Source: Ignavibacteria bacterium
GTDB taxonomy: Bacteria; Bacteroidota; Ignavibacteria; Kapaibacteriales; UBA2268
Direction: 5' to 3'
Assembly (NCBI GenBank): GCA_026416955.1
Contig: JAOAEE010000031.1
Span: 1 to 49,134 of the forward strand
DNA: 49,134 bases
Position numbers and translations under genes: made by a program. Below are positions 12,001 to 21,390 of the stretch, piece after piece; the stretch's first letter is position 1; each line of letters opens with the position of its first letter. Under the pieces are notes generated by a model. It was not told the DNA's origin. It did no database searches and saw nothing but the letters and a program-made list of their open reading frames with translations.

Positions 12001-14103
12001 ATATTGAAACAATTCTATTCTTATTTGAATACCCCAAGGATTTTGGCTCCACTCATCATCCGAGTGCTCTATTAGTAAACTATCATATATTAAATCGGAA
12101 CCAATGTTTCCTGTTGAGATATACCTAATGTAAAACTTTACTGAATCGCTAGGTTTTACGACAATATCACCTTTTGGGAAAATTAGTTCACAACCTGAAT
12201 TTTCTTTAAATCTTGCACGTGAAAAATAAACTACTAAATCCCCATCCCCAATATTTTTAATATAACCTGAATCTAAGTAGACTTTTCCCGGGCAATCGTA
12301 AACGAATAAACTAATTTTTTTGTTACCAGCACAAATTCCTTGAGGTATTCTGTATAAAATATTCATTGCAGATTGAGAAAGAATATATCGGGGTTGATAT
12401 TTAAATGTATCTGGAATTGAAAAACCAATGTCTTGAATAGCACAAAGATAAAATAACTTACTTGTGTCGGGTAGAATTAGTTGAGAATTCCAAACATTTT
12501 GATTTACAAACCCAGTTACAGTTTTAATAAGGTTCCAATCAGAATTGCTCGACTTTACAAAAATTAAAACATTGTCTGAACTTTGATTCTTACTCCCAGT
12601 AAGATTAAATCTTCTTTTTACAAAAGTTGTTGTGTCTGTGGAAAGCCCTATATAAACAGAAGGATTTGTATGAGAATATGTAATATTAGAAAATGAAGGA
12701 GCATCTACACGAAAGTAACCTCGTCCACCTCCATTACCACCAAGAGCAGATAGGTTCAAGTTTTGAGCGACTTCCTTAGAGCAAATGGATATGGACCCAC
12801 CAGAACCTCCCCCACCCGCACCGTAACTGCTTTGTCCACCATTTGCTCCATTTGCTAAAACGGACAAATTCTCTATTCTTTTAGCATAAATGCGGATGGC
12901 ACCACCACCTCCGCCTCCACTTCCAGAACATACATTTAACCCACTTGGATTCCCACTTGCACCTCCACTTCCACCGGCAATTGGTATAATCATAGGGTTT
13001 CCGTGTGTCTTTCCCCCATTTGAATAATTCGATGGTTCATTCTGACCATCAGTTGCAAAACCACCCGAGCCGCCCATTCTATTATTAATTGACCCAGTTC
13101 CTCCACCATAACCTCCGGGATAATTCCAATTGCTCTGGTCCCCCGAACCAATTCCCGACTTTCCAAAAGGATGTCCAGTTCCGCCCCCGGATGCTTCCCA
13201 CCCACCCGGATTAGCAGGGGGAAGAACCCCATTTAAACTTTTACCAGAATCACCAGTTCCAGAACCTAAATTTTTATAGGAACCATTACCACTTAGGAAA
13301 TAATTTACTCCACCCTTTCCCCCGGGTGTAAATCCATTACCACCATCCTCCCCGGGGTTTCCACTGATATTGTCACAAAATCTTCCGCCACCTCCTCCAC
13401 CACCAGGGCCAGCATTTTGTATTCTGAATTCACCAGCACTTACATTAATTCTACTATTTACTCCTTGCCCAACAATGTTATTGGTCGAAAGAATAATAAA
13501 AGGTAAATACGAACGATTCTTCAATGGGTAAGTAATAGAGTTATCAAGAAAAACTTTATATTCAAGATTAGAGAGAGATAAATTATCGACAAGTAATGCC
13601 CCACTTGGGGAACGACGTCCCAGTTGCCCAGTACCAAAAACTTGATTACTTTGCAATAAATTTCCAAAAGAATAAGGTTTAACTATATAAAATGTATCAG
13701 GATTAGATAAAACCCCATTTACTTCTACTCGAAAAGGAATTCTAAATTTAGGATCCAAAAGTGGCCAATCAGAACTATTAGGAACATCGAGATTTGGACT
13801 AACAAAAAAATAAGTGGATAGTAAACGGCCAAACCAGGTAATTACTAATGGCCCAACAACAACTTTTTGAGAATCTTCGGACCTATCAAAAACTATACGC
13901 ACCCGTCCATTATTGTTATAATAAATAGTATCTAAACCAAAATTGTAAAATGCGTCGGTAGGAGCTACAATCTCTACATAAGTTCCAAATCCTGGGGTGC
14001 CAATGTCAGGTATAATATATGAGATTTTTGGTTGGGCAAAAATTGATATTACTGATAATAATAAGAAAAAAGGAAAAAGAAAAAAATTAGATATACCTTT
14101 CAT
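9067..14103 (-). CDS. Giant secreted glycine-rich, ASH-repeat protein with T9SS-like C-terminal tail
   Basis: A 1678-residue protein with a signal peptide ending ISIFAQ. Residues about 228-461 are extremely glycine-rich (runs such as GPGGGGGGG, SGSGGGGGG, AGGGGSGGS). From about 705 to 1440 there are roughly seven repeats of the choice-of-anchor D / ASH (HYDIN-like) Ig fold, each with a core like DTLDFGICQVGD or DTIDLGEICVGD. A further domain follows, and the last 65 residues (LRLYDIMGNLL...TGVILVQVY) resemble a type A T9SS sorting domain. It is therefore predicted to be exported and surface-attached, perhaps as an adhesin or matrix protein. It is the promoter-proximal gene of a two-gene operon with the OmpA protein. 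Function beyond a surface structure is unknown. Confidence 0.85.
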   Translation of the reverse strand: MKGISNFFLFPFFLLLSVISIFAQPKISYIIPDIGTPGFGTYVEIVAPTDAFYNFGLDTIYYNNNGRVRIVFDRSEDSQKVVVGPLVITWFGRLLSTYFFVSPNLDVPNSSDWPLLDPKFRIPFRVEVNGVLSNPDTFYIVKPYSFGNLLQSNQVFGTGQLGRRSPSGALLVDNLSLSNLEYKVFLDNSITYPLKNRSYLPFIILSTNNIVGQGVNSRINVSAGEFRIQNAGPGGGGGGGRFCDNISGNPGEDGGNGFTPGGKGGVNYFLSGNGSYKNLGSGTGDSGKSLNGVLPPANPGGWEASGGGTGHPFGKSGIGSGDQSNWNYPGGYGGGTGSINNRMGGSGGFATDGQNEPSNYSNGGKTHGNPMIIPIAGGSGGASGNPSGLNVCSGSGGGGGGAIRIYAKRIENLSVLANGANGGQSSYGAGGGGSGGSISICSKEVAQNLNLSALGGNGGGRGYFRVDAPSFSNITYSHTNPSVYIGLSTDTTTFVKRRFNLTGSKNQSSDNVLIFVKSSNSDWNLIKTVTGFVNQNVWNSQLILPDTSKLFYLCAIQDIGFSIPDTFKYQPRYILSQSAMNILYRIPQGICAGNKKISLFVYDCPGKVYLDSGYIKNIGDGDLVVYFSRARFKENSGCELIFPKGDIVVKPSDSVKFYIRYISTGNIGSDLIYDSLLIEHSDDEWSQNPWGIQIRIELFQYKFAFIEKSKLSLIDTLNFGDLCAINSLDTVILLQNQSVFPLSFKYSFNPVNITLNSKNAYLGSNFNDTLDIIVNANKYGVFLDSILVYPEDCPQLQKKLYIKYRLINARTEFIYNSTSVDTIDLGEICVGDTFTATFFIHNIGNTPLSLKNVDKNGNGDFHLLFSQNTLLDIDNNFENKIICTPITEGKHTSTFVYHYNECEYKDSVVVAYKAVKSKATVIGGTYFGFVQIGEKDTTKVFVVNNGTGTSYFDKEPPSTNNFIFLESIPTIPTYLRPGDTIVFVYEFIPDKEGEFKELIKLISNSNNDCPDTIYFELHGFGTNAKIFANIDSVYIGLFPYCKSKDTVIYIYNKGSTNLIIRKVELRQTYNPEHFILSNSLSTNVIPPNSIDSCVVKFVGIKGSPTGLKTAELVIESNDVNNPIIRIKFSAFQENLNVDLVPDTLDFGICQVGDFKTRRLKLINKGTYFEPQRVRDFEGNKSVFEPSPSVAIVYPKDTVEIVFTFRPDREGEIFDSMRIVYFQPCPDTQWVYLRGRGTTGKFYVLDTLDFGEVVFCSSDTISTNIQNLGTIPFRVDSAKVLGKDSSNFFLITQFPFAVDSSRILKIVFYGAKDEREYLAFLRLYVYINNKTQEVNILLKAKPKRFIKFDFSELDFGFVPIGILKDEIVTLRNYGSQTIIKDYFFAKKTTVFSTDLQKNIVVPINLSPQFKVNLKPDKEGSIVDTLFVVVQYPDCLDTIRLVLKGFGVPPQDVIIRAGDVLMDPKTEIGNIPLYIKIEDTTKQISVRAFEFKISFFWNIFHPTSVSNGKIVSDKIQNFNRELTLRFDSLTISGNEKNFVNIIGIPLISDTDFSVVNLYDCVWEQPGYVRNTSLLPGSIKTIICNEGGKRLVRPQNSFLVNLYENESGITIFILSNYQDVYYLRLYDIMGNLLFFESFNYNFYISDRKEIHIPSSILPTGVILVQVYNSFERVVLKTIFIK

Positions 14104-14341
14104 AAATACATCAAATATTGAAAGACTAATATAAAAATTTTCATCTGAAAATTTATAACAACAAAATTATACAAATGTAAAATACAAAAGATTAAGGGAA
14201 AAATTTGTGGGGAAAAAATAAAAAATATTTAAACTTTTTTTTAAATTTGCTTTTGTAGTTCTTTTAGTAAAATGAATAATTGGTTATTTGAACTATGAGT
14301 TTTGTAGAGTTTATTTTATTTCAAACTTTGGGGAGGTATTT
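14104..14341. promoter_or_regulatory. Divergent intergenic region between the giant surface protein and the cytochrome cluster
   Basis: This AT-rich stretch separates oppositely transcribed genes and must hold promoters for both. I cannot assign -33/-7 elements with confidence. A strong Shine-Dalgarno GGGGAGG is visible at 14330-14336, five bases before the ATG at 14342. It decides the start of the first cytochrome gene against a longer frame opening at 14288. Confidence 0.45.
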
Positions 14342-15421
14342 ATGAAAAGAATTTCTTCAATCTTATCACTATCCCTCGCACTGTTTTTCGTTTTGTTAAC
14401 TTCTTGTACTGGTCCTGAAGGTCCTGCTGGTCCCCCGGGAAAAGACGGAAAAGACGGCGCCCCGGGAACAGCTGTCTGCGGTGTTTGCCATGAATCTTCA
14501 TCATTTTTGCTTGCAAAGCAACTCCAATTTCACAACTCTCTTCACTTTACTGGCGAAGCCTTCGCAACTGCTAATAGAACCACTTGTGCAACTTGCCATA
14601 CTCACGAAGGATTTCGCGAATCGCTCACAACAAATCTTGATACAGCCCTTGCCCCAATTCCTCACCCAACTGGGGTAAATTGCAGAACTTGCCATAACAT
14701 TCACACAAAATATGATACAACCGACTATGCTTTGACTTACACTGCTCCAGTGAAGTTCCGACACGGTGGACAAACCGTAGACTTTGGTACAGGTAATTTA
14801 TGTGCAAAATGTCATCAAGCAAGGATTGTTTCCCCAATGCCAGCAGTTGGTGGGGATAGCATCACAATTTCAAACTTCCGATGGGGTCCACATTATAGTA
14901 TGAATGCAAACATTTTAGCTGGTGTAGGTGGATACGAAATTCAAGGTCCTAATCCTTACCCAACATCAAATCCTCATAAAACACAGATTAAAGATGGTTG
15001 CATTTCTTGCCATATGGCACGACCCTACGGCACTTTTGCTGGTGGGCATACATTCAAAATGACTTATGAATCTGGTGGACAAGAATTCGAACACGTAGTG
15101 TCTTGTGCACAAAGCAATTGCCATCCGGGTGCCACAAAGTTTGATATTGACGGTAAAGTGAAAGAAATCAAGGACCTCATCTCTCAACTTCGACAAAAAC
15201 TAATTGATAAAGGACTTCTTGATGTTTCGAGAAATACTACTGGAAACGATGTTCTAAATGAATATATTATGCTACCCGGAAATAAACCGAAAAAGTTCTC
15301 ATCTTTGGAAGCTGGTGCTGTTCTTAATTACTTACTCGTAGCCAAAGACAGAAGTTACGGCATTCACAATTATAAATATACAAAGGCATTGCTAGTAAAT
15401 ACTCTTAACGCATTACAATAA
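14342..15421 (+). CDS. Multihaem (about 6) cytochrome c lipoprotein with collagen-like stalk
   Basis: A 359-residue protein. Its signal peptide ends in a lipobox (LLTSC, Cys22), so it is a lipoprotein. Directly after the cysteine come six Gly-X-Y triplets (residues 24-42, GPEGPAGPPG then KDGKDGAPG), a collagen-like spacer. Five CXXCH haem motifs follow (CGVCH, CATCH, CRTCH, CAKCH, CISCH), plus CAQSNCH, a CX4CH variant that may bind a sixth haem. The C-terminal segment (NYLLV..DRSYGIHNYKY) resembles C-terminal parts of the NrfA/multihaem superfamily, but the CXXCK site of NrfA is absent, so nitrite reduction is not supported. It is the first gene of the redox island, 20 bp before the cytochrome-porin gene. 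It probably acts as a membrane-tethered electron carrier or surface reductase; which leaflet it faces is unknown. Confidence 0.85.
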   Translation: MKRISSILSLSLALFFVLLTSCTGPEGPAGPPGKDGKDGAPGTAVCGVCHESSSFLLAKQLQFHNSLHFTGEAFATANRTTCATCHTHEGFRESLTTNLDTALAPIPHPTGVNCRTCHNIHTKYDTTDYALTYTAPVKFRHGGQTVDFGTGNLCAKCHQARIVSPMPAVGGDSITISNFRWGPHYSMNANILAGVGGYEIQGPNPYPTSNPHKTQIKDGCISCHMARPYGTFAGGHTFKMTYESGGQEFEHVVSCAQSNCHPGATKFDIDGKVKEIKDLISQLRQKLIDKGLLDVSRNTTGNDVLNEYIMLPGNKPKKFSSLEAGAVLNYLLVAKDRSYGIHNYKYTKALLVNTLNALQ

Positions 15422-15441
15422 CAAATCCTTTGAATTGAGAT

Positions 15442-16641
15442 ATGAAAAGGTTAACACTTTCAATAATTGTGATTTTAGTTTTTCTGGGGTGCGAGATTTT
15501 CTCGCGCCCCCAGTATTCAATATTGCAAACCTACGGAACAAAATGTAGCGCTTGTCACGTAAATGTTCAAGGCGGTGGTGCTCGCACTGTTCCTGGTTGG
15601 TTATCAAGAAAAGATATTTCCTTAATCGACCCAAATTGGATTGGTTTGAAAAAATTCTTCGAAAACTTACTTGCAAGAAATTCTTACTTCGATGACAAAC
15701 TAGTTTTCGGCTTCGATGCCCGTTGGCAAACTGCAAGGTGGCCCTCGGGAATTGCTAGTAGTAAGCGAGATTATATGATAATGCAGTTAAATCCCTATCT
15801 GATCATTCAACCCACAAATTGGTTGTTTTTTGAGGGGACATATAATCTTGCTTATGAAATCGAAAAAGATAAGCGTTACCCCGCACAACAACCCTATTCA
15901 TTTAGTATTTATCTTAAACCTTTTGAAAATTTACCATCATTGCGGCTAGGATATTTCTTGCCCCCAATGGGCCAGAAATGGGACGACCACACTATGTTTG
16001 TTCGCTATGCAGTAGCATATAGAGGAAAACATCCCGTAGTACCACACGATTATGCAGAATGGGGTGCTCAAATCGATTATGAAAACATTTCTTGGTTAAG
16101 TCTTTCGGCAGGGGTATTTTCCGGAAAAAATCTAAGCACACTTAAAATACCCAAAATAGTTAATGGAAAAGACACTTCGGTCCAATTAGTAAAAGATAAT
16201 TCTCTTGGATTTGCTGCTAGAGGGATGGTTTCCCCACCAGAAATTATTAAAGGCTTAACTTCCTATTGTGGTGGAACTTTTTATTTGAACGACGATTACT
16301 ACGTTTCGAGTGTATTCCTGGGTCTTGGCTTACCGGATAGATTTTCTTTAATAGGCGAATATGCTAGGACGCAAAAGAAAGATTCGAGACTTTCCTTATC
16401 TTTTTCAACAGAATTGACATATCAAGTTACTGAAAGCCTTTTACCTTTCATCCGTGCTGAACGTTCAATCTTAAAAGATAAAAACCAAAACAAACCTGTG
16501 TATGCAACGAACTTAGTATTTGGTTCCCATATTATTCTTTTACCTTCATTGGATTTGCTAATAGAATACCGAATTTTAGATAGAGAACAACTCGAAGGCT
16601 ATTTTTCTCAATGGGCTATCCAAATTCACTTATATTATTAG
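15442..16641 (+). CDS. Monohaem cytochrome fused to an outer-membrane beta-barrel (Cyc2-like architecture)
   Basis: A 399-residue protein with an N-terminal export signal and one haem site soon after it (TKCSACHV, C35, C38, H39). About 300 residues with alternating hydrophobic/aromatic strands follow, ending WAIQIHLYY; the terminal aromatic residue is typical of Bam-assembled barrels. One haem plus one porin in a single chain is the arrangement of Cyc2, the outer-membrane iron oxidase. The residues around the haem (YSILQTYGTKC) are only loosely like the Cyc2 signature, so homology is unproven. Neighbours are other electron-transfer genes in the same direction with short gaps (20 and 13 bp). 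A barrel with an internal haem could move electrons through the outer membrane. Alternative: an ordinary porin-like family with a structural haem. Confidence 0.75.
   Translation: MKRLTLSIIVILVFLGCEIFSRPQYSILQTYGTKCSACHVNVQGGGARTVPGWLSRKDISLIDPNWIGLKKFFENLLARNSYFDDKLVFGFDARWQTARWPSGIASSKRDYMIMQLNPYLIIQPTNWLFFEGTYNLAYEIEKDKRYPAQQPYSFSIYLKPFENLPSLRLGYFLPPMGQKWDDHTMFVRYAVAYRGKHPVVPHDYAEWGAQIDYENISWLSLSAGVFSGKNLSTLKIPKIVNGKDTSVQLVKDNSLGFAARGMVSPPEIIKGLTSYCGGTFYLNDDYYVSSVFLGLGLPDRFSLIGEYARTQKKDSRLSLSFSTELTYQVTESLLPFIRAERSILKDKNQNKPVYATNLVFGSHIILLPSLDLLIEYRILDREQLEGYFSQWAIQIHLYY
15484..15513 (+). other. GC-rich stem-loop inside the signal-peptide coding region
   Basis: CTGGGG-TGCGAGA and TCTCGCG-CCCCCAG can pair as two 6-7 bp helices with a small internal loop and a TTT loop. 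It stands out against AT-rich surroundings, about 40 bases after the start codon of the cytochrome-porin gene. No U-run follows, so it is not an intrinsic terminator. It may affect translation or be chance. Confidence 0.5.
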
Positions 16642-16654
16642 GTGGAGGAGAAAT

Positions 16655-17158
16655 ATGGATGTAAATAAAAAAGAACAAGTAACAACCAGAAGAGATTTTT
16701 TAAGGTATGTAGGTTCCTTTTTTGCCACTGGATTGGTTATTACTACAGTTTATCCGATTCTTACCTCTTGTGAAAAAGACGAAAGTTTACCCGCTCCACC
16801 ACCAGGCTCAAACGTTACTATTGATTTAAAAGCCCATCCAGAGCTCAATAACATTCCAAGCATCAAAAAAATTAATATTCAAACACCAGTAAGTCTGACC
16901 ATTATCATTAAAAGAATTAGCCAAACTAACTTTCTTGGCTTTTCAAGTCTTTGCCCACATCAAGGAGTTGATTTGGAATTACCATCAAATCCGGATGGAA
17001 ATCTCCACTGCCCAAGGCACAATGTTGATTTTTCTACTATGGAAACTAATAAAGGGGTGGTTGTATCCAATCCAAATGGTGTAAAACTTGGAAATTTGCC
17101 CACTTATCAAGTAGAATTTGACCCAAACAAAAATATTTTGACTATTAAATTGTCTTAA
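16655..17158 (+). CDS. Tat-exported Rieske [2Fe-2S] protein
   Basis: A 167-residue protein with a twin-arginine signal (TTRRDFLRYVG, R12-R13) and a hydrophobic stretch ending ILTSC, which may serve as an anchor or a lipobox. The Rieske cluster ligands are C100-P-H102 and C119-PR-H122, the CxH...CxxH pattern. The two extra cysteines that form the disulfide in bc1/b6f Rieske proteins are missing (CPHQGV and CPRHNV), which in known families goes with a lower redox potential or a non-bc1 role. A strong ribosome site (GGAGGAG) precedes the ATG. There is no bc1-type cytochrome b alongside it; the only cytochrome b in the cluster is of the b561/formate dehydrogenase type. It therefore probably acts as a periplasmic electron carrier in the redox island. 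Confidence 0.9.
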   Translation: MDVNKKEQVTTRRDFLRYVGSFFATGLVITTVYPILTSCEKDESLPAPPPGSNVTIDLKAHPELNNIPSIKKINIQTPVSLTIIIKRISQTNFLGFSSLCPHQGVDLELPSNPDGNLHCPRHNVDFSTMETNKGVVVSNPNGVKLGNLPTYQVEFDPNKNILTIKLS

Positions 17159-17191
17159 ATATTTCGATATGTTAAACTTAAAGGAAAAGAA

Positions 17192-17587
17192 ATGGAACCA
17201 TTAAAGAAATATGGAATACTTGCGGGAACACTTATACTTGTATTTAGTTTGTTCATCGTTGCACAAGAACCACCAAAAGAAGAAATAAAAATCGATGTTG
17301 AAAAGGCAAAGACCAAGTATTTGGAAGCGAAATGTAACCAATGTCACGCTCATTCTGATTTTGGTATTGAATCCAAAAATAAATCTCCCAATAACAAAGC
17401 CCCAGACTTTTCTAAAATTAAAATCGAATACGACAAGTCTTTCTTGATTAAATATCTCAACAAAGAAGAAGCAATAAACAACAAAAAGCATCCAGTTGCT
17501 TACAAAGGTAGCGAGGAAGATTTGGAACTATTAATGAGCTTTCTTCTGTTAAAAAAGGAACAGAATAATGAAAATAACAACAATTAA
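17192..17587 (+). CDS. Small monohaem cytochrome c, membrane-anchored or periplasmic
   Basis: A 131-residue protein with an N-terminal hydrophobic helix (GILAGTLILVFSLFIV), which is either a signal or an anchor, then one haem motif CNQCH (C48, C51, H52). The C-terminal part (KHPVAYKGSEEDLELLMSFLL) has the helix layout of a class I cytochrome. HP stands where these proteins usually have MP, so the sixth iron ligand may be histidine instead of methionine; this needs structural support. The tail is Asn-rich. It ends 21 bp before a strong terminator and is the last gene of the first transcription unit of the redox island. Likely an electron shuttle between its neighbours. Confidence 0.8.
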   Translation: MEPLKKYGILAGTLILVFSLFIVAQEPPKEEIKIDVEKAKTKYLEAKCNQCHAHSDFGIESKNKSPNNKAPDFSKIKIEYDKSFLIKYLNKEEAINNKKHPVAYKGSEEDLELLMSFLLLKKEQNNENNNN

Positions 17588-17604
17588 TTTTTCTCTCAAA
17601 AATG

Positions 17605-17640
17605 AAAGGGGAACCATTTCGAAAATGGTTCCCTTTTTTT
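17605..17640 (+). terminator. Strong intrinsic terminator splitting the redox island
   Basis: GGGAACCATTT (17609-17619) pairs perfectly with AAATGGTTCCC (17623-17633) around a CGA loop and is followed by seven T (17634-17640). It lies 21 bp after the monohaem cytochrome stop and about 20 bp before the 13-haem cytochrome gene, so the downstream pair needs its own promoter or read-through. Confidence 0.93.
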
Positions 17641-17662
17641 GTTTAACTTTAACTAAATCAGT

Positions 17663-19156
17663 ATGAAAAGAATATATTTGATTTTGTTTTTGTTAATGCT
17701 AACTTTAAGTTTCAATAATTCACTATCTCAAGGGAAAAAGGTTGCCGATAATTCTCATTGCTTATCCTGTCACGACGACCCAACGATTACAATGACCAAG
17801 AATGGTAAAGAAATCTCCCTTGAAGTAAAGAAACATATTTATTCTAAGTCTGTTCATTCATTATTAAAATGTGAAAAATGTCATATTGGTTTTAATCCTG
17901 ATGAAATTCCACATAAAGAAAATATTACACTAATAAACTGTTTGAGTTGCCACAGCAATGCTCCACAAACCCATAAATTCCACCCAACAATGAACAAAGC
18001 AAATGGAACGGGTGGAACCGAAGATGTTAATTGCAAGAATTGCCACGGATACCACGATGTACAATCCCCAAAATCACCTTCTTCCCCTTTACATTTTACA
18101 AATTCTACTAACTTTTGTGGAAAGTGTCATAAAAAAGAACGAGAAGACCACATAAAATCTCAACATTTTGTTGAGATAAATAAAAATAATCCCAATGCCC
18201 CAACTTGTATTTTTTGTCATCAAAAGCCAATTACAAGCGGAAATCGCCTTGAATTAGTTCAATTGAAATTAAACCAAGAGGAGTTGTGCCTAAGTTGTCA
18301 CATTAACCAACAAGGAAATCAATTTGCAAAAGCACTTATAGATTATGATAAAAGTGTCCACGGAGCCGCACTTCGTCGGGGAAATCAGTTTGCTGCAATT
18401 TGCATCGATTGCCACGGCTCCCATAATTTACAAAAAGTAACTTCGCCAACCTCTAATATCAATCCTACAAAAGTCTCGGATGTATGTGGTAAATGTCACG
18501 TCGCCATCACCCAAGAGTATCATTCAAGCGTTCACGGTACTGAACTTTTAAAGGGAAATCCAGACGTTCCGGGTTGCACATATTGCCACGGTGAACATTC
18601 CATTGGTCCGATGGCAATAGTGGAAGAAAGAATTATTCAAAGAAACAGAATGAACTTCAACACATTAGTTTCAAATAAGATGGTTTTCTGTGTACGTTGC
18701 CACACGAACGATACTCTAATGTCAAAATATAAATTAAGTACTTTGGATAAAGCCCACGACTGGCTACCTAATTTACAGGTCCATTGGGAAACAGTTCGTT
18801 GTGTCGATTGCCACTCATCATACGAACCACCAAACCTTTCTCATAATATTCTGCCCCGTGATGCAACAGTCAAAAAGTGTGAAGAATGCCATTCAAAGAA
18901 CTCAATTCTTATGACAAAGTTATATAAACACGAAAAAGCCCGTTCACGCGAAAAATATGGGTTTATTAATGGAACTATTTTAAGCGACGCTTATGTGATT
19001 GGCACAACCAGAAATGTTTATTTGGACTTTTTCAGCATTGTAATTTTTGGAATTGTAATTGTTTTTCTTCTAATTCACATTTTTCTAAGGTGGTATTTCC
19101 GCCCTTCAAAAGTCCCAGTTGTGAGTCAAGAACAAAAGCAAGAAGGTGAAGAGTAA
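17663..19156 (+). CDS. Tridecahaem (13 CXXCH) cytochrome c with C-terminal membrane anchor
   Basis: A 497-residue protein with a signal peptide (to about residue 22) and thirteen CXXCH motifs in order: CLSCH, CEKCH, CLSCH, CKNCH, CGKCH, CIFCH, CLSCH, CIDCH, CGKCH, CTYCH, CVRCH, CVDCH, CEECH. Many are followed by GxH or paired with SVH segments, giving likely bis-histidine haems. A single hydrophobic helix at about 453-475 with a basic flank (RWYFR) anchors the C-terminus in the inner membrane, leaving the haems in the periplasm. The next gene, 26 bp on, encodes a quinone-linked cytochrome b/multihaem fusion. The two probably form a complex that passes electrons between the quinone pool and the periplasmic carriers. 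Substrate reduction at one of the haems cannot be excluded. Confidence 0.9.
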   Translation: MKRIYLILFLLMLTLSFNNSLSQGKKVADNSHCLSCHDDPTITMTKNGKEISLEVKKHIYSKSVHSLLKCEKCHIGFNPDEIPHKENITLINCLSCHSNAPQTHKFHPTMNKANGTGGTEDVNCKNCHGYHDVQSPKSPSSPLHFTNSTNFCGKCHKKEREDHIKSQHFVEINKNNPNAPTCIFCHQKPITSGNRLELVQLKLNQEELCLSCHINQQGNQFAKALIDYDKSVHGAALRRGNQFAAICIDCHGSHNLQKVTSPTSNINPTKVSDVCGKCHVAITQEYHSSVHGTELLKGNPDVPGCTYCHGEHSIGPMAIVEERIIQRNRMNFNTLVSNKMVFCVRCHTNDTLMSKYKLSTLDKAHDWLPNLQVHWETVRCVDCHSSYEPPNLSHNILPRDATVKKCEECHSKNSILMTKLYKHEKARSREKYGFINGTILSDAYVIGTTRNVYLDFFSIVIFGIVIVFLLIHIFLRWYFRPSKVPVVSQEQKQEGEE

Positions 19157-19182
19157 GTTTTACAAATAATATTATCGACAAA

Positions 19183-21390
19183 ATGAAAAAAATATACCTT
19201 TACCCTTTTTGGTTGCGATTGTGGCACTGGTCTAATGCTTTACTTTTTCTTCTATTAATCGCTTCTGGTTTAAGTCTCCACTATTCTGACCCTAAAACGG
19301 GTTTCATACCATTTCAAATTTCGATTATTATTCATAATGTCTGTGGAATCTTACTATCTTTAAATTATTTGTTTTTCATTATCAAAAGTATTATTTCAAA
19401 AAATTATAAGTATTACATTCCAAAGCTGAAGGGTCTTTGGGAAAGAATTTACATTCAACTTCGATATTATTTGTTAGGTATATTTATTGGAGAACATCAT
19501 CCTTTTGAATCCGACAAAGAACAAAAGTTCAATCCTTTGCAGCAAATAACATACCTTTTCATAATGGCATTATTTATGCCATTAATTATTATTTCTGGTT
19601 GGTTACTGATGTTTCCAGAGTTAGCACCCGACGAATTTCTTGGTTTGGGTGGTATCTGGCCAATGGCGCTGCTGCACACAATTGTGGGCTTCATATTAAG
19701 TATATTTATGTTTGTCCATATCTACTTAGGAACCACTGGAAGCACTATTGGTGAACTCTACAAATCGATGATTACTGGATGGAAACTTGCATTTGAAGAG
19801 CCACACCAAATTCAACTTAAACCTAAAAAGCCTTATAAGAAGAAAAAACTATTGCCTGTCGTATTTTATAATCCAACATCACTTTCAGGAGCTCTTATTT
19901 CCATATTATCTTTTGTGATAATTGTTTTTTTAACTATCATAGAACTATTTACCGAGAACCCCAATCCATATCTTGGTATTGTCACATTTATTGTTTTGCC
20001 AACTTTTGTACTTTTAGGTATCGCATTAATAATTTTTGGGGCACTGAAAGAAAATAGAAGGTTACTTAGGTCGGGTGGCGCTAAGAAGGCGCTACCAGTT
20101 ATCGATCTAAATAACCCACGTCACCAAGTTGCCACAATAGTATTTTCGGTTAGTGGTTTATTATTGCTAATTTTTTCTACTTTTGGAACATTCAAAGCAT
20201 ATGAATATACAGATTCTGACCAGTTTTGCGGGGAAGTCTGCCATAAAGTTATGGAACCGGTGTATTTTTCCTATAAAGATTCTCCCCACTCAAGAGTTGG
20301 TTGTGTGAAATGCCACATTGGTCCAGGTGCTGACTGGTTTGTTCGTTCAAAGCTTTCTGGTGCATACCAAGTATATGCAACTATAATGGAAAAATATTCG
20401 AAACCAATTCCAACCCCAGTCGAGAATCTACGCCCATCGCAAGAAACCTGCGAACAGTGTCATTGGCCTAAGCATTTTTATTCCGAAAAAAATAAACGTT
20501 ACGACTTTTTTACCTCTGACGAAAAAAATTCAGAATATCAAATCTCTATGTTAATAAAAGTTGGTGGTGGTAGCCCAGAAACTGGAAACAATGACGGCAT
20601 TCATTGGCATATGTATCTTGCAAATGAAATTACCTATTGGGCTGCAGATAAAACCCGACAAATTATTCCTTGGGTTAAATCTCGCTCACTTATTACCGGA
20701 GAAGAAAATGTTTACATCGATACAACATATAAATTTGAATTCAAAACAAAAGTCCCTCCAAAAGAAGAACTGCGTAGGTTCGATTGTATCGATTGCCATA
20801 ACAGACCATCCCACGTTTTCAAACAACCTAATCAAACTATTAACTATTATCTTTCTTCAGGCAAAATCGATAAAACCTTACCTTACATAAAAAATATAGG
20901 GGTACAGGTTTTAGAAAATTACGCCCGCTCTCGCAAAACTGCCTTCGAGAACATCAAAAATTATGTATATGGTTTTTATAAACAATATTATCCGGAAGTA
21001 TTAATTCAAAAAGAGAAAGAAATTGAAAAAGCAGTTCACGAACTTTACAATATTTATATGCGGAATTACTTTCCCGATATGAAAGCGAATTGGAAAAACT
21101 ACCCAGTGAATATTGGGCACCTCTACAGCCCGGGTTGTTTCAGATGTCACGACGGAAAGCACGTTAGCCCTACAACTGGTAAAGTCATTACTAATGATTG
21201 CAATGCTTGTCATATAATTAATTATCAAAAACCACCAAGCGGCGAAGTATTTGTATCATCCCAAGGATTAGAATTTATACACCCAGGTGGTATAGAAAAA
21301 CTTTCTCAAAAACAACAATGTTATATTTGCCACGGTGCCCAAGGGCAACAACAAATCTTTATGCCAAAGATTTCTACTGCAAGCAAATAA
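19183..21390 (+). CDS. Cytochrome b561-type membrane domain fused to a seven-haem NapC/NirT-like cytochrome c
   Basis: A 735-residue protein with about seven membrane helices. The first four (about 19-36, 44-67, 125-145, 161-182) match the diheme cytochrome b of formate dehydrogenase/hydrogenase type, with histidines in LRLWHWSN, SLHYSD, IIIHNVCG, LLHTIVG and MFVHIYLG. Two further helices (236-287) lead to a NapC/NirT-like anchor (316-338). Seven c-haem sites follow: CGEVCH (C349, a CX3CH variant), CVKCH, CEQCH, CIDCH, CFRCH, CNACH, CYICH. Proteins of these families oxidise or reduce membrane quinones, so this is the likely quinone entry or exit point of the redox island. Having both a b-type and a NapC-type module in one chain is unusual. 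It follows the 13-haem cytochrome gene by 26 bp. Confidence 0.88.
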   Translation: MKKIYLYPFWLRLWHWSNALLFLLLIASGLSLHYSDPKTGFIPFQISIIIHNVCGILLSLNYLFFIIKSIISKNYKYYIPKLKGLWERIYIQLRYYLLGIFIGEHHPFESDKEQKFNPLQQITYLFIMALFMPLIIISGWLLMFPELAPDEFLGLGGIWPMALLHTIVGFILSIFMFVHIYLGTTGSTIGELYKSMITGWKLAFEEPHQIQLKPKKPYKKKKLLPVVFYNPTSLSGALISILSFVIIVFLTIIELFTENPNPYLGIVTFIVLPTFVLLGIALIIFGALKENRRLLRSGGAKKALPVIDLNNPRHQVATIVFSVSGLLLLIFSTFGTFKAYEYTDSDQFCGEVCHKVMEPVYFSYKDSPHSRVGCVKCHIGPGADWFVRSKLSGAYQVYATIMEKYSKPIPTPVENLRPSQETCEQCHWPKHFYSEKNKRYDFFTSDEKNSEYQISMLIKVGGGSPETGNNDGIHWHMYLANEITYWAADKTRQIIPWVKSRSLITGEENVYIDTTYKFEFKTKVPPKEELRRFDCIDCHNRPSHVFKQPNQTINYYLSSGKIDKTLPYIKNIGVQVLENYARSRKTAFENIKNYVYGFYKQYYPEVLIQKEKEIEKAVHELYNIYMRNYFPDMKANWKNYPVNIGHLYSPGCFRCHDGKHVSPTTGKVITNDCNACHIINYQKPPSGEVFVSSQGLEFIHPGGIEKLSQKQQCYICHGAQGQQQIFMPKISTASK

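Follow-up and report, generated by a model that had tools for sequence, protein, structure and literature searches.

A protein that carries one haem c site ahead of an outer-membrane barrel invites the reading Cyc2, and hence iron oxidation, and the question raised by this locus is whether that reading fits. The window, by which we mean the whole stretch of 49,134 nucleotides of contig JAOAEE010000031.1 (Ignavibacteria bacterium, GCA_026416955.1) that was analysed, encodes such a protein amongst a row of redox genes (Table 1). The protein belongs to a real and conserved haem-barrel family, which has the same design as Cyc2 but is a distinct family with other partners, and the function that we propose for it is supported rather than demonstrated. 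With a probability of about 0.5, the window protein is a single-haem relay in an OprO/P-type barrel, forming the outer-membrane step of a six-gene conduit in which export of electrons is the likelier direction. Taken as a whole, the operon has the look of an electron wire linking the inside of the cell with its surroundings.

The earlier note on this DNA described a single haem site right behind an export signal and a chain ending in Tyr-Tyr, and both were confirmed: the site is exactly C35-SA-C38-H39 and is the sole CXXCH in the open reading frame (residues 35–39), and the 399-aa frame closes with I395-H396-L397-Y398-Y399. The signal peptide, read by eye, ends at about residue 21, between IFS and RPQYS, where relatives mostly have A-x-A- or S-like cleavage sites before X-P. 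H39 would, by analogy with other c-type sites, be the proximal haem ligand, and haem is presumably inserted into the barrel protein. The window protein matched no Pfam or NCBIfam family at E ≤ 1 and no PHROGs entry at E ≤ 0.1, gave nothing meaningful amongst PDB sequences (best E 1.4), and had no relative in viral contigs and plasmids; a sister-group protein (see below) likewise had no relative in plasmids. The frame is not a product of chance, since it finds matches in 46 of 60 genomes, the window's own included (E ≤ 1e-3), and since C35, C38, H39, R48, G52 and D182 are kept in 33 of 33 non-redundant family members.

Table 1. Positions in the window of the barrel gene, its conserved features and the adjacent genes.
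Feature	Position	Strand	Basis
Lipoprotein, collagen-like Gly-X-Y linker, 5 CXXCH + 1 CX4CH	14342..15421	+	PF22113 28.8 bits (cut-off 30); PF14522 25.6 (cut-off 24.8)
Monohaem outer-membrane barrel protein, 399 aa	15442..16641	+	ORF list, ATG start; family; predicted fold
Signal peptide, residues 1-21; mature chain from R22-P23	15442..15504	+	Sequence; probable cleavage site
P23, +2 of the probable mature chain	15508..15510	+	52/54 core, 26/26 sister group
C35-S36-A37-C38-H39, haem c attachment	15544..15558	+	CXXCH in 80/80 members
G44-G45-G46-A47-R48, family signature where Cyc2 would have PXL after CXXCH	15571..15585	+	Conservation
D182-H183, loop between strands 5 and 6 (putative porin L3 position)	15985..15990	+	Conservation; strand order
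H396, last strand, four residues from C-terminus	16627..16629	+	Conservation; proposed distal haem ligand
Rieske [2Fe-2S] protein, RR + lipobox-like motifs, C-P-H...C-P-R-H ligands	16655..17158	+	PF00355 26 bits, cut-off 20.3
Monohaem c-type cytochrome, 131 aa	17192..17587	+	PF00034 E 0.019, below cut-off
13-haem cytochrome, C-terminal hydrophobic stretch (by eye)	17663..19156	+	ORF list, domain search
b561-type membrane cytochrome fused to NrfH/NapC-like + further c-haem region, 6 CXXCH	19183..21390	+	PF01292 91.5 bits; PF03264 32.1 bits

The haem-barrel family is widespread, unnamed and distinct from Cyc2, and it was not described in the open-access literature searched on Cyc2-like proteins, Rieske proteins and outer-membrane cytochromes in these bacteria. 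The nearest named records, at 72–80% identity, are metagenome-assembled genomes of Kapabacteria, Ignavibacteria and the Bacteroidetes/Chlorobi group. In a phylum-wide draw the alignment profile matched 44 of 247 genomes, all of the window's class or nearer, with two of these (G244 and G324) matching only over the haem-motif stretch; among the genomes listed, at least 17 further members of the class had no profile match, and none of the other 186 genomes, which to judge by the shortened list lie outside the class, matched. Of 101 genomes from the phylum to which the Gemmatimonadota record G066 belongs, 7 matched, one of them weakly. The window's own genome holds two copies, the second being a paralogue on contig C54, 31% identical to the window protein.

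Of 136 profile hits, none of which lacked CXXCH on a recount, 101 were kept, 32 were repeats and three were too short; these last are small proteins of around 230 codons with the same haem motif, situated beside the sister-group barrels of L125, L126 and L128. Sorting of the sequences by best-scoring profile gave a core set (n = 54), from the Kapabacteria/Ignavibacteria side of Bacteroidota, and a sister group (n = 26), which also includes Gemmatimonadota and Proteobacteria. The two are split by a quick tree (SH-aLRT 100) and align over 331 columns with a probability of 99.9%, or over 280 columns with 99.7% for the barrel alone. One sister-group sequence, L135, has a very long branch (2.37) and matched only positions 61–190, and was retained in the counts.

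The haem site itself (C35, C38, H39) is present in all 54 core and all 26 sister-group sequences, as are G52 and D182. R48 is found in 54/54 and 25/26, R94 in 54/54 and 24/26, and the glycines before R48 in 51/54 and 26/26 (G44), 44/54 and 22/26 (G45), and 50/54 and 23/26 (G46), whilst H183 is kept in 50 of the 54 core sequences. H396 is conserved in 52/54 core and 24/26 sister-group sequences (76/80), compared to 0/21 Cyc2 sequences. A His four residues from the C-terminus was also absent from the 12 Cyc2-motif proteins of the window's class, and was seen in only 12 of 551 control ORFs and in none of 15 ORFs with a barrel-like C-terminus, several of which are Cyc2-type proteins. One exception to H396 is a gene cut by a contig end (L009); the other three are real, with Q in L089, N in L016 and Q in L131, and because Q or N replaces H396 in these complete members the proposed His ligand is not universal.

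A barrel of about 16 strands had been anticipated, and structure prediction bears this out. For the mature chain, AlphaFold2 (18 rows) gave a model with a mean pLDDT of 74.5, a pTM of 0.78 and, by our own count, 16 main barrel strands, and in VIA-align this predicted model was closest to OprP (2o4v_A; Z 25.1, rmsd 2.7, 287 aligned) and OprO (Z 25.0, rmsd 2.7, 286 aligned), with further 16-strand porins close behind at Z 21–23. Foldseek ranked the model differently, with OmpU first and OprP fourth. A sister-group member from Microbulbifer was likewise predicted to have 16 strands (pLDDT 75.5, pTM 0.77; residues 1–25 and 35–54 below 50), with OprP and OprO on top, both at Z 25.8. The earlier note had also placed the haem as a plug inside the barrel, and this is not visible in the model, where the haem segment (mature-chain residues 9–36) has a pLDDT under 50; the barrel part of that claim is supported, and the plug stays conjectural. 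The loop bearing D182-H183 probably corresponds to L3, the porin constriction loop. With the last aromatic toward the lipid, H396 would point into the lumen close to the rim on the periplasmic side, and the haem may be situated inside the barrel.

Cyc2 is defined as a 16-stranded barrel resembling OprO/OprP, its models having been built on OprP/OprO templates, with AXPXFAR[QK][TY] before CXXCH and PXL after it; the potential of its haem is +208 mV (PMC8406198, in part). Cyc2 of clusters 1–3, including Leptospirillum Cyt572, resembles the haem-barrel family in its signal peptide, its one N-terminal CXXCH, its predicted 16-strand OprP/OprO-like barrel, and a P-x-[FY]-[AS] placed 10 or 12 residues upstream of CXXCH. 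It differs in that the family has GGG-x-R and a C-terminal His and has neither AXPXFAR[QK][TY] nor PXL, and in that the window's family has Rieske and multihaem neighbours. The suggestion that the haem-flanking residues depart from the Cyc2 consensus was correct, as both published motifs are missing from the window protein: the segment before the site reads F-S-R-P-Q-Y-S-I-L-Q, with only the P and an aromatic in common, and the segment after it reads CSACH-VNVQGGGAR, with no PXL four residues after CXXCH. The length of 399 aa is above the Cyc2 minimum of at least 365 residues. The window protein was missed at E ≤ 100 by both Cyc2 profiles built here; at E ≤ 1e-3 the same two HMMs matched 11 (or 9) of the 54 core and 20 (or 19) of the 26 sister-group sequences.

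The haem segment has a pattern in common with Cyc2. This pattern, P-x-[FYWL]-[AST] starting either 10 or 12 residues ahead of CXXCH (−10 or −12), occurs in 48/54 core, 21/26 sister-group and 21/21 Cyc2 sequences, and at 15 of 511 other CXXCH sites, 14 of those 15 being Cyc2-type proteins of the class; the pattern was picked after viewing the sequences, so its control is descriptive and not a test. Against the Cyc2 profiles, the sister group scored 98.0%, or 94.9% over 314 columns with CXXCH masked and 62.9% for the barrel only, compared to 95.5%, 3.8% and 17.7% for the core, where it should be borne in mind that CXXCH alone can reach up to 78.4% over 14 columns (core vs the operon's monohaem cytochrome). 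In a first comparison, with 20–21 Cyc2 sequences that came nearly all from one order, Burkholderiales, the likeness was confined to the haem segment (masked, 27.5% for the sister group and 0.6% for the core), and it was the addition of 12 Cyc2-motif proteins of the window's class that brought the masked sister-group value to 94.9%, with the core still at 3.8%. Haem-free OprO/P porins (10 sequences, being PF07396 proteins of relatives; one of the 11 loci, L171, had no usable frame) scored 93.0% over 228 columns against the sister-group barrel and 1.1% against the core barrel profile. As these haem-free porins match the sister-group barrel better than Cyc2 does, the barrels alone do not settle kinship with Cyc2.

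These comparisons lead us to conclude that core, sister group and Cyc2 all consist of an OprO/P-like porin preceded by a haem segment at the N-terminus. A single fusion with later divergence appears likelier than two separate fusions, and shared ancestry with Cyc2 is probable, albeit unproven. The earlier proposal of a separate family that reached the same design is supported in its first half, given the tree, the conserved residues and the silence of the Cyc2 profiles; its second half, independent arrival at the design, is unsupported, as the haem-segment pattern is shared and the sister group, though not the core, matches Cyc2 with CXXCH masked. A Cyc2 query matched 12 of the 60 genomes at E ≤ 1e-3, and of 14 stretches taken from Cyc2-matching genomes, 12 hold a frame of at least 250 codons with the exact motif. 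Cyc2-motif barrels are thereby seen in the window's class itself (L147, L149, L153–L161 and L163), and those of L156, L157 and L158 adjoin a 4-haem cytochrome.

In the window, six adjacent genes of the same orientation, the barrel gene among them, span roughly positions 14342 to 21390 and together encode 26 CXXCH sites. The lipoprotein frame has a listed start at TTG 14288, with its first inner ATG at 14342, and between its lipid anchor and its haems lies the collagen-like Gly-X-Y linker (14405–14470), which is kept in relatives; a trimeric collagen-like stalk on a trimeric OprP-like barrel is conceivable. The b561/NrfH-type cytochrome also has a TIGR03153 match that stays below cut-off (E 1.6e-12). 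All six genes are found together again in L003, L005, L007, L008, L080, L088, L093 and L095, with the 13-haem and b-type genes on the opposite strand in L007 and the b-type gene cut off in L080 and short in L095. Neighbourhoods were viewed for 6 of the 17 loci of the nearest named records, for 8 sister-group loci and for 20 regions. Locus L007 also holds, beside its barrel operon, an 18-haem cytochrome fused to a b561-type domain (12790–15648), with a CbcL-like layout, and in L094 (5868–12558) the lipoprotein-barrel-Rieske triplet is duplicated in tandem.

Of the 54 core barrels, 45 have a Rieske gene no more than 5 kb away on the same strand, compared to 0 of the 26 sister-group rows, for which many loci have only around 1.5 kb of flank, making these absences soft. 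For the 45 distinct barrels with a Rieske gene within 6 kb, this gene lies downstream in 43, and the searched ligand pattern C-x-H...C-x-x-H is matched in 36 of the Rieske neighbours and missing from 9. The lipoprotein gene, on the other hand, is confined to the window's clade (SH-aLRT 100, quick tree), where it is present in 22 of 23 rows, and occurs in no other core row. The b-type/NrfH gene is found in 24 of the 60 genomes, 22 of which also match the barrel (G033 only with a 36-residue piece); among the 36 genomes that do not have this gene, 24 match the barrel as well (both hand counts). The labelled tree suggests that barrel and Rieske protein are the older unit and that the multihaem lipoprotein and the quinone-linked part were added in one clade. 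A frame with one CXXCH lies directly beside the barrel on the same strand in 14/26 sister-group and 7/54 core rows, counting frames of 60 codons or more, not all of which are confirmed as genes, and a monohaem cytochrome gene lies directly upstream of the barrel in the own paralogue, L082, L090, L091 and L010. The paralogue (C54:7699–8871; L002, L079) adjoins a gene for a monohaem cytochrome of around 168 aa and is without conduit genes.

Other arrangements were also noted. In L081, L085, L089, L097 and L098, the haem barrel is accompanied by a membrane protein of around 110 aa, a YceI-like protein and a Rieske protein, with YceI confirmed by Pfam in L089 and L098; YceI proteins bind isoprenoids or quinones. 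The Gammaproteobacteria sister-group barrels of L013, L017 and L018 are encoded downstream of a monohaem lipoprotein-like gene, which in L013 has weak CopC and Ig-like matches below cut-off, and to our knowledge these organisms are not known as iron oxidisers.

As a conduit exporting electrons, the operon would operate as follows. The b561/NrfH-type cytochrome would oxidise menaquinol in the inner membrane, and the 13-haem cytochrome, the monohaem cytochrome and then the Rieske protein would relay the electrons to the barrel haem, situated at the periplasmic mouth. From this haem they would move on via the 5–6-haem lipoprotein on its collagen-like stalk to an extracellular acceptor. H39 and the last-strand residue H396 would hold the barrel haem from its two sides, and the mature N-terminus, R48 and the L3 loop (D182) would pack against it. 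The analysis establishes the gene order and its conservation, the family membership, a predicted 16-strand fold and the conserved residues; haem insertion and position, ligation by H396, carrier order, surface location of the lipoprotein and electron direction are inferred. Export is considered more likely than import, given the multihaem lipoprotein beside the barrel and the NrfH-like region in the quinone cytochrome, and since the conserved H396 suggests a bis-His haem, of lower potential than that of Cyc2. Quinone cytochromes of the CymA and CbcL/MtrH/MtoC types have, however, been reported for both electron directions (PMC6295460, in part), and the aa3 oxidase and putative alternative complex III of this genome would also suit electron uptake to oxygen. 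The Rieske protein could serve the inner membrane instead. The barrel can work without the conduit, since there is a paralogue clade without it, 24 of 36 genomes have a barrel match without the b-type/NrfH gene, and no Rieske gene was found near the 26 sister-group rows, within flanks that are often short.

A bolder version of this proposal, which we hold only tentatively and consider rather improbable as it stands, is that the family represents a second class of one-haem outer-membrane wire, with a bis-His, low-potential haem stapled by the last-strand His, an ancestral Rieske [2Fe-2S] lipoprotein partner, and the conduit a later gain of one clade. The barrel-Rieske pair would then mirror, at the outer membrane, the pairing of Rieske protein and cytochrome c in bc-type complexes. 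For Cyc2, which is without H396 but has the same fixed X-P in its mature chain, distal ligation might come from the free amine of the N-terminus, by analogy with the N-terminal amine ligation of cytochrome f (PMC6616624, in part). A 13-row haem-segment profile searched against PDB sequences did not have cytochrome f among its matches; its best rows were ordinary c-type cytochromes, headed by cytochrome c-554 (E 1.2e-4), which matched via its CXXCH sites. The amine idea also draws on the form of the cytochrome f N-terminus.

The conduit can be compared to other known systems. Like MtrCAB/MtoAB and the Geobacter-type Pcc, it is proposed to pass electrons across the outer membrane and to be linked to quinones via CymA/CbcL-type cytochromes. 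MtrB/MtoB, however, form 26 strands around a decahaem cytochrome (PMC8406198, in part), whereas the window protein is predicted to have 16 strands and carries one haem site in the barrel chain itself. For Ignavibacteria, the reported conduits belong to the OmbB/Geobacter-Pcc and MtrB types (PMC7399161, PMC6137239; both in part), and the window conduit would therefore differ from them. The phosphate-selective porins OprO/OprP share the predicted barrel fold, but have no haem and no sequence match to the core barrel profile, and the own genome has no PF07396 match at E ≤ 1e-10. By content, the closest cluster met, compared by description only, is extHIJKLMNOPQS of Geobacter sulfurreducens, which combines the OprO/P-like porin ExtI with a Rieske protein, a cytochrome b, 5-, 12- and 10-haem cytochromes and a lipoprotein cytochrome, and in which ExtI is needed for full selenite and tellurite reduction (PMC5877670, in part). 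It differs in also encoding rhodanese-like and selenocysteine proteins and in that the sections of the source at hand do not report haem binding by ExtI (PMC5877670, in part).

The rival that follows most directly from the architecture is a Cyc2-like Fe(II) oxidase, in which Fe(II) would enter the barrel, the haem would take the electron, and the conduit would lead inward to the quinone pool or the aa3 oxidase. The same one-haem, 16-strand OprO/P-like design and the shared haem-segment pattern agree with it, as do the presence of an aa3 oxidase and the fact that the own genome has no match to the Cyc2 query at E ≤ 1e-3. Weighing against these, both defining Cyc2 motifs are missing, the conserved H396 is a residue that the Cyc2 sequences do not have, and a multihaem lipoprotein adjoins the barrel; in addition, genomes such as G012, G022 and G024 hold both the haem-barrel family and Cyc2-motif barrels, suggesting that the two probably do different jobs. 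Iron oxidation, named in the earlier note for fused cytochrome-porins, finds no specific support for the window barrel, and we regard it as doubtful here.

An anion or oxyanion channel with redox partners, in which an ExtI-like barrel would bring substrate to periplasmic cytochromes, is unlikely. Its fold is of the OprO/P type, the ext cluster is similar in gene content, and one sister-group protein, L115, slightly exceeds the Porin_4 cut-off of 27 (27.6 bits) and stays just below that of Porin_O_P (18.8 bits vs 20.9); yet a plain channel would have no need of the CXXCH that all 80 members possess, and the sections at hand do not count ExtI as one of the haem proteins of the ext cluster (PMC5877670). 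Even less probable, indeed very improbable, is a haem with a sensory or structural role that controls the gating of a porin, without electron transfer across the membrane: paralogues and sister group do occur without conduit genes, as such a role would allow, but a one-CXXCH frame lies beside 14/26 sister-group and 7/54 core barrels, and the six genes of the window operon bring their 26 CXXCH with them.

The same architecture is here combined with another haem segment, a C-terminal His and another neighbourhood, so that architecture alone would not be a safe marker of iron oxidation. For the Kapabacteria/Ignavibacteria side of Bacteroidota, the haem-barrel family provides a well-delimited candidate for electron exchange with the outside of the cell, and how one haem can serve a whole outer membrane is testable through one residue, H396.

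With regard to the respiratory context, one haem-copper oxidase gene was found in the genome, of the aa3 type, with CoxB over the cut-off and CoxA just under it. The oxidase cluster, with its NrfD-like, large and pentahaem subunits, looks like an alternative complex III, and on contig C21 a 4-haem NrfH-like gene together with a larger 4-CXXCH gene looks, from sequence, like a putative nitrite reductase. The PF14522 search of the own genome for multihaem genes missed those of the window itself and is not usable as a census. A 10-haem lipoprotein-like cytochrome, encoded at 2547–3881 of L151 (G000 contig C58), is a possible further surface cytochrome of this bacterium.
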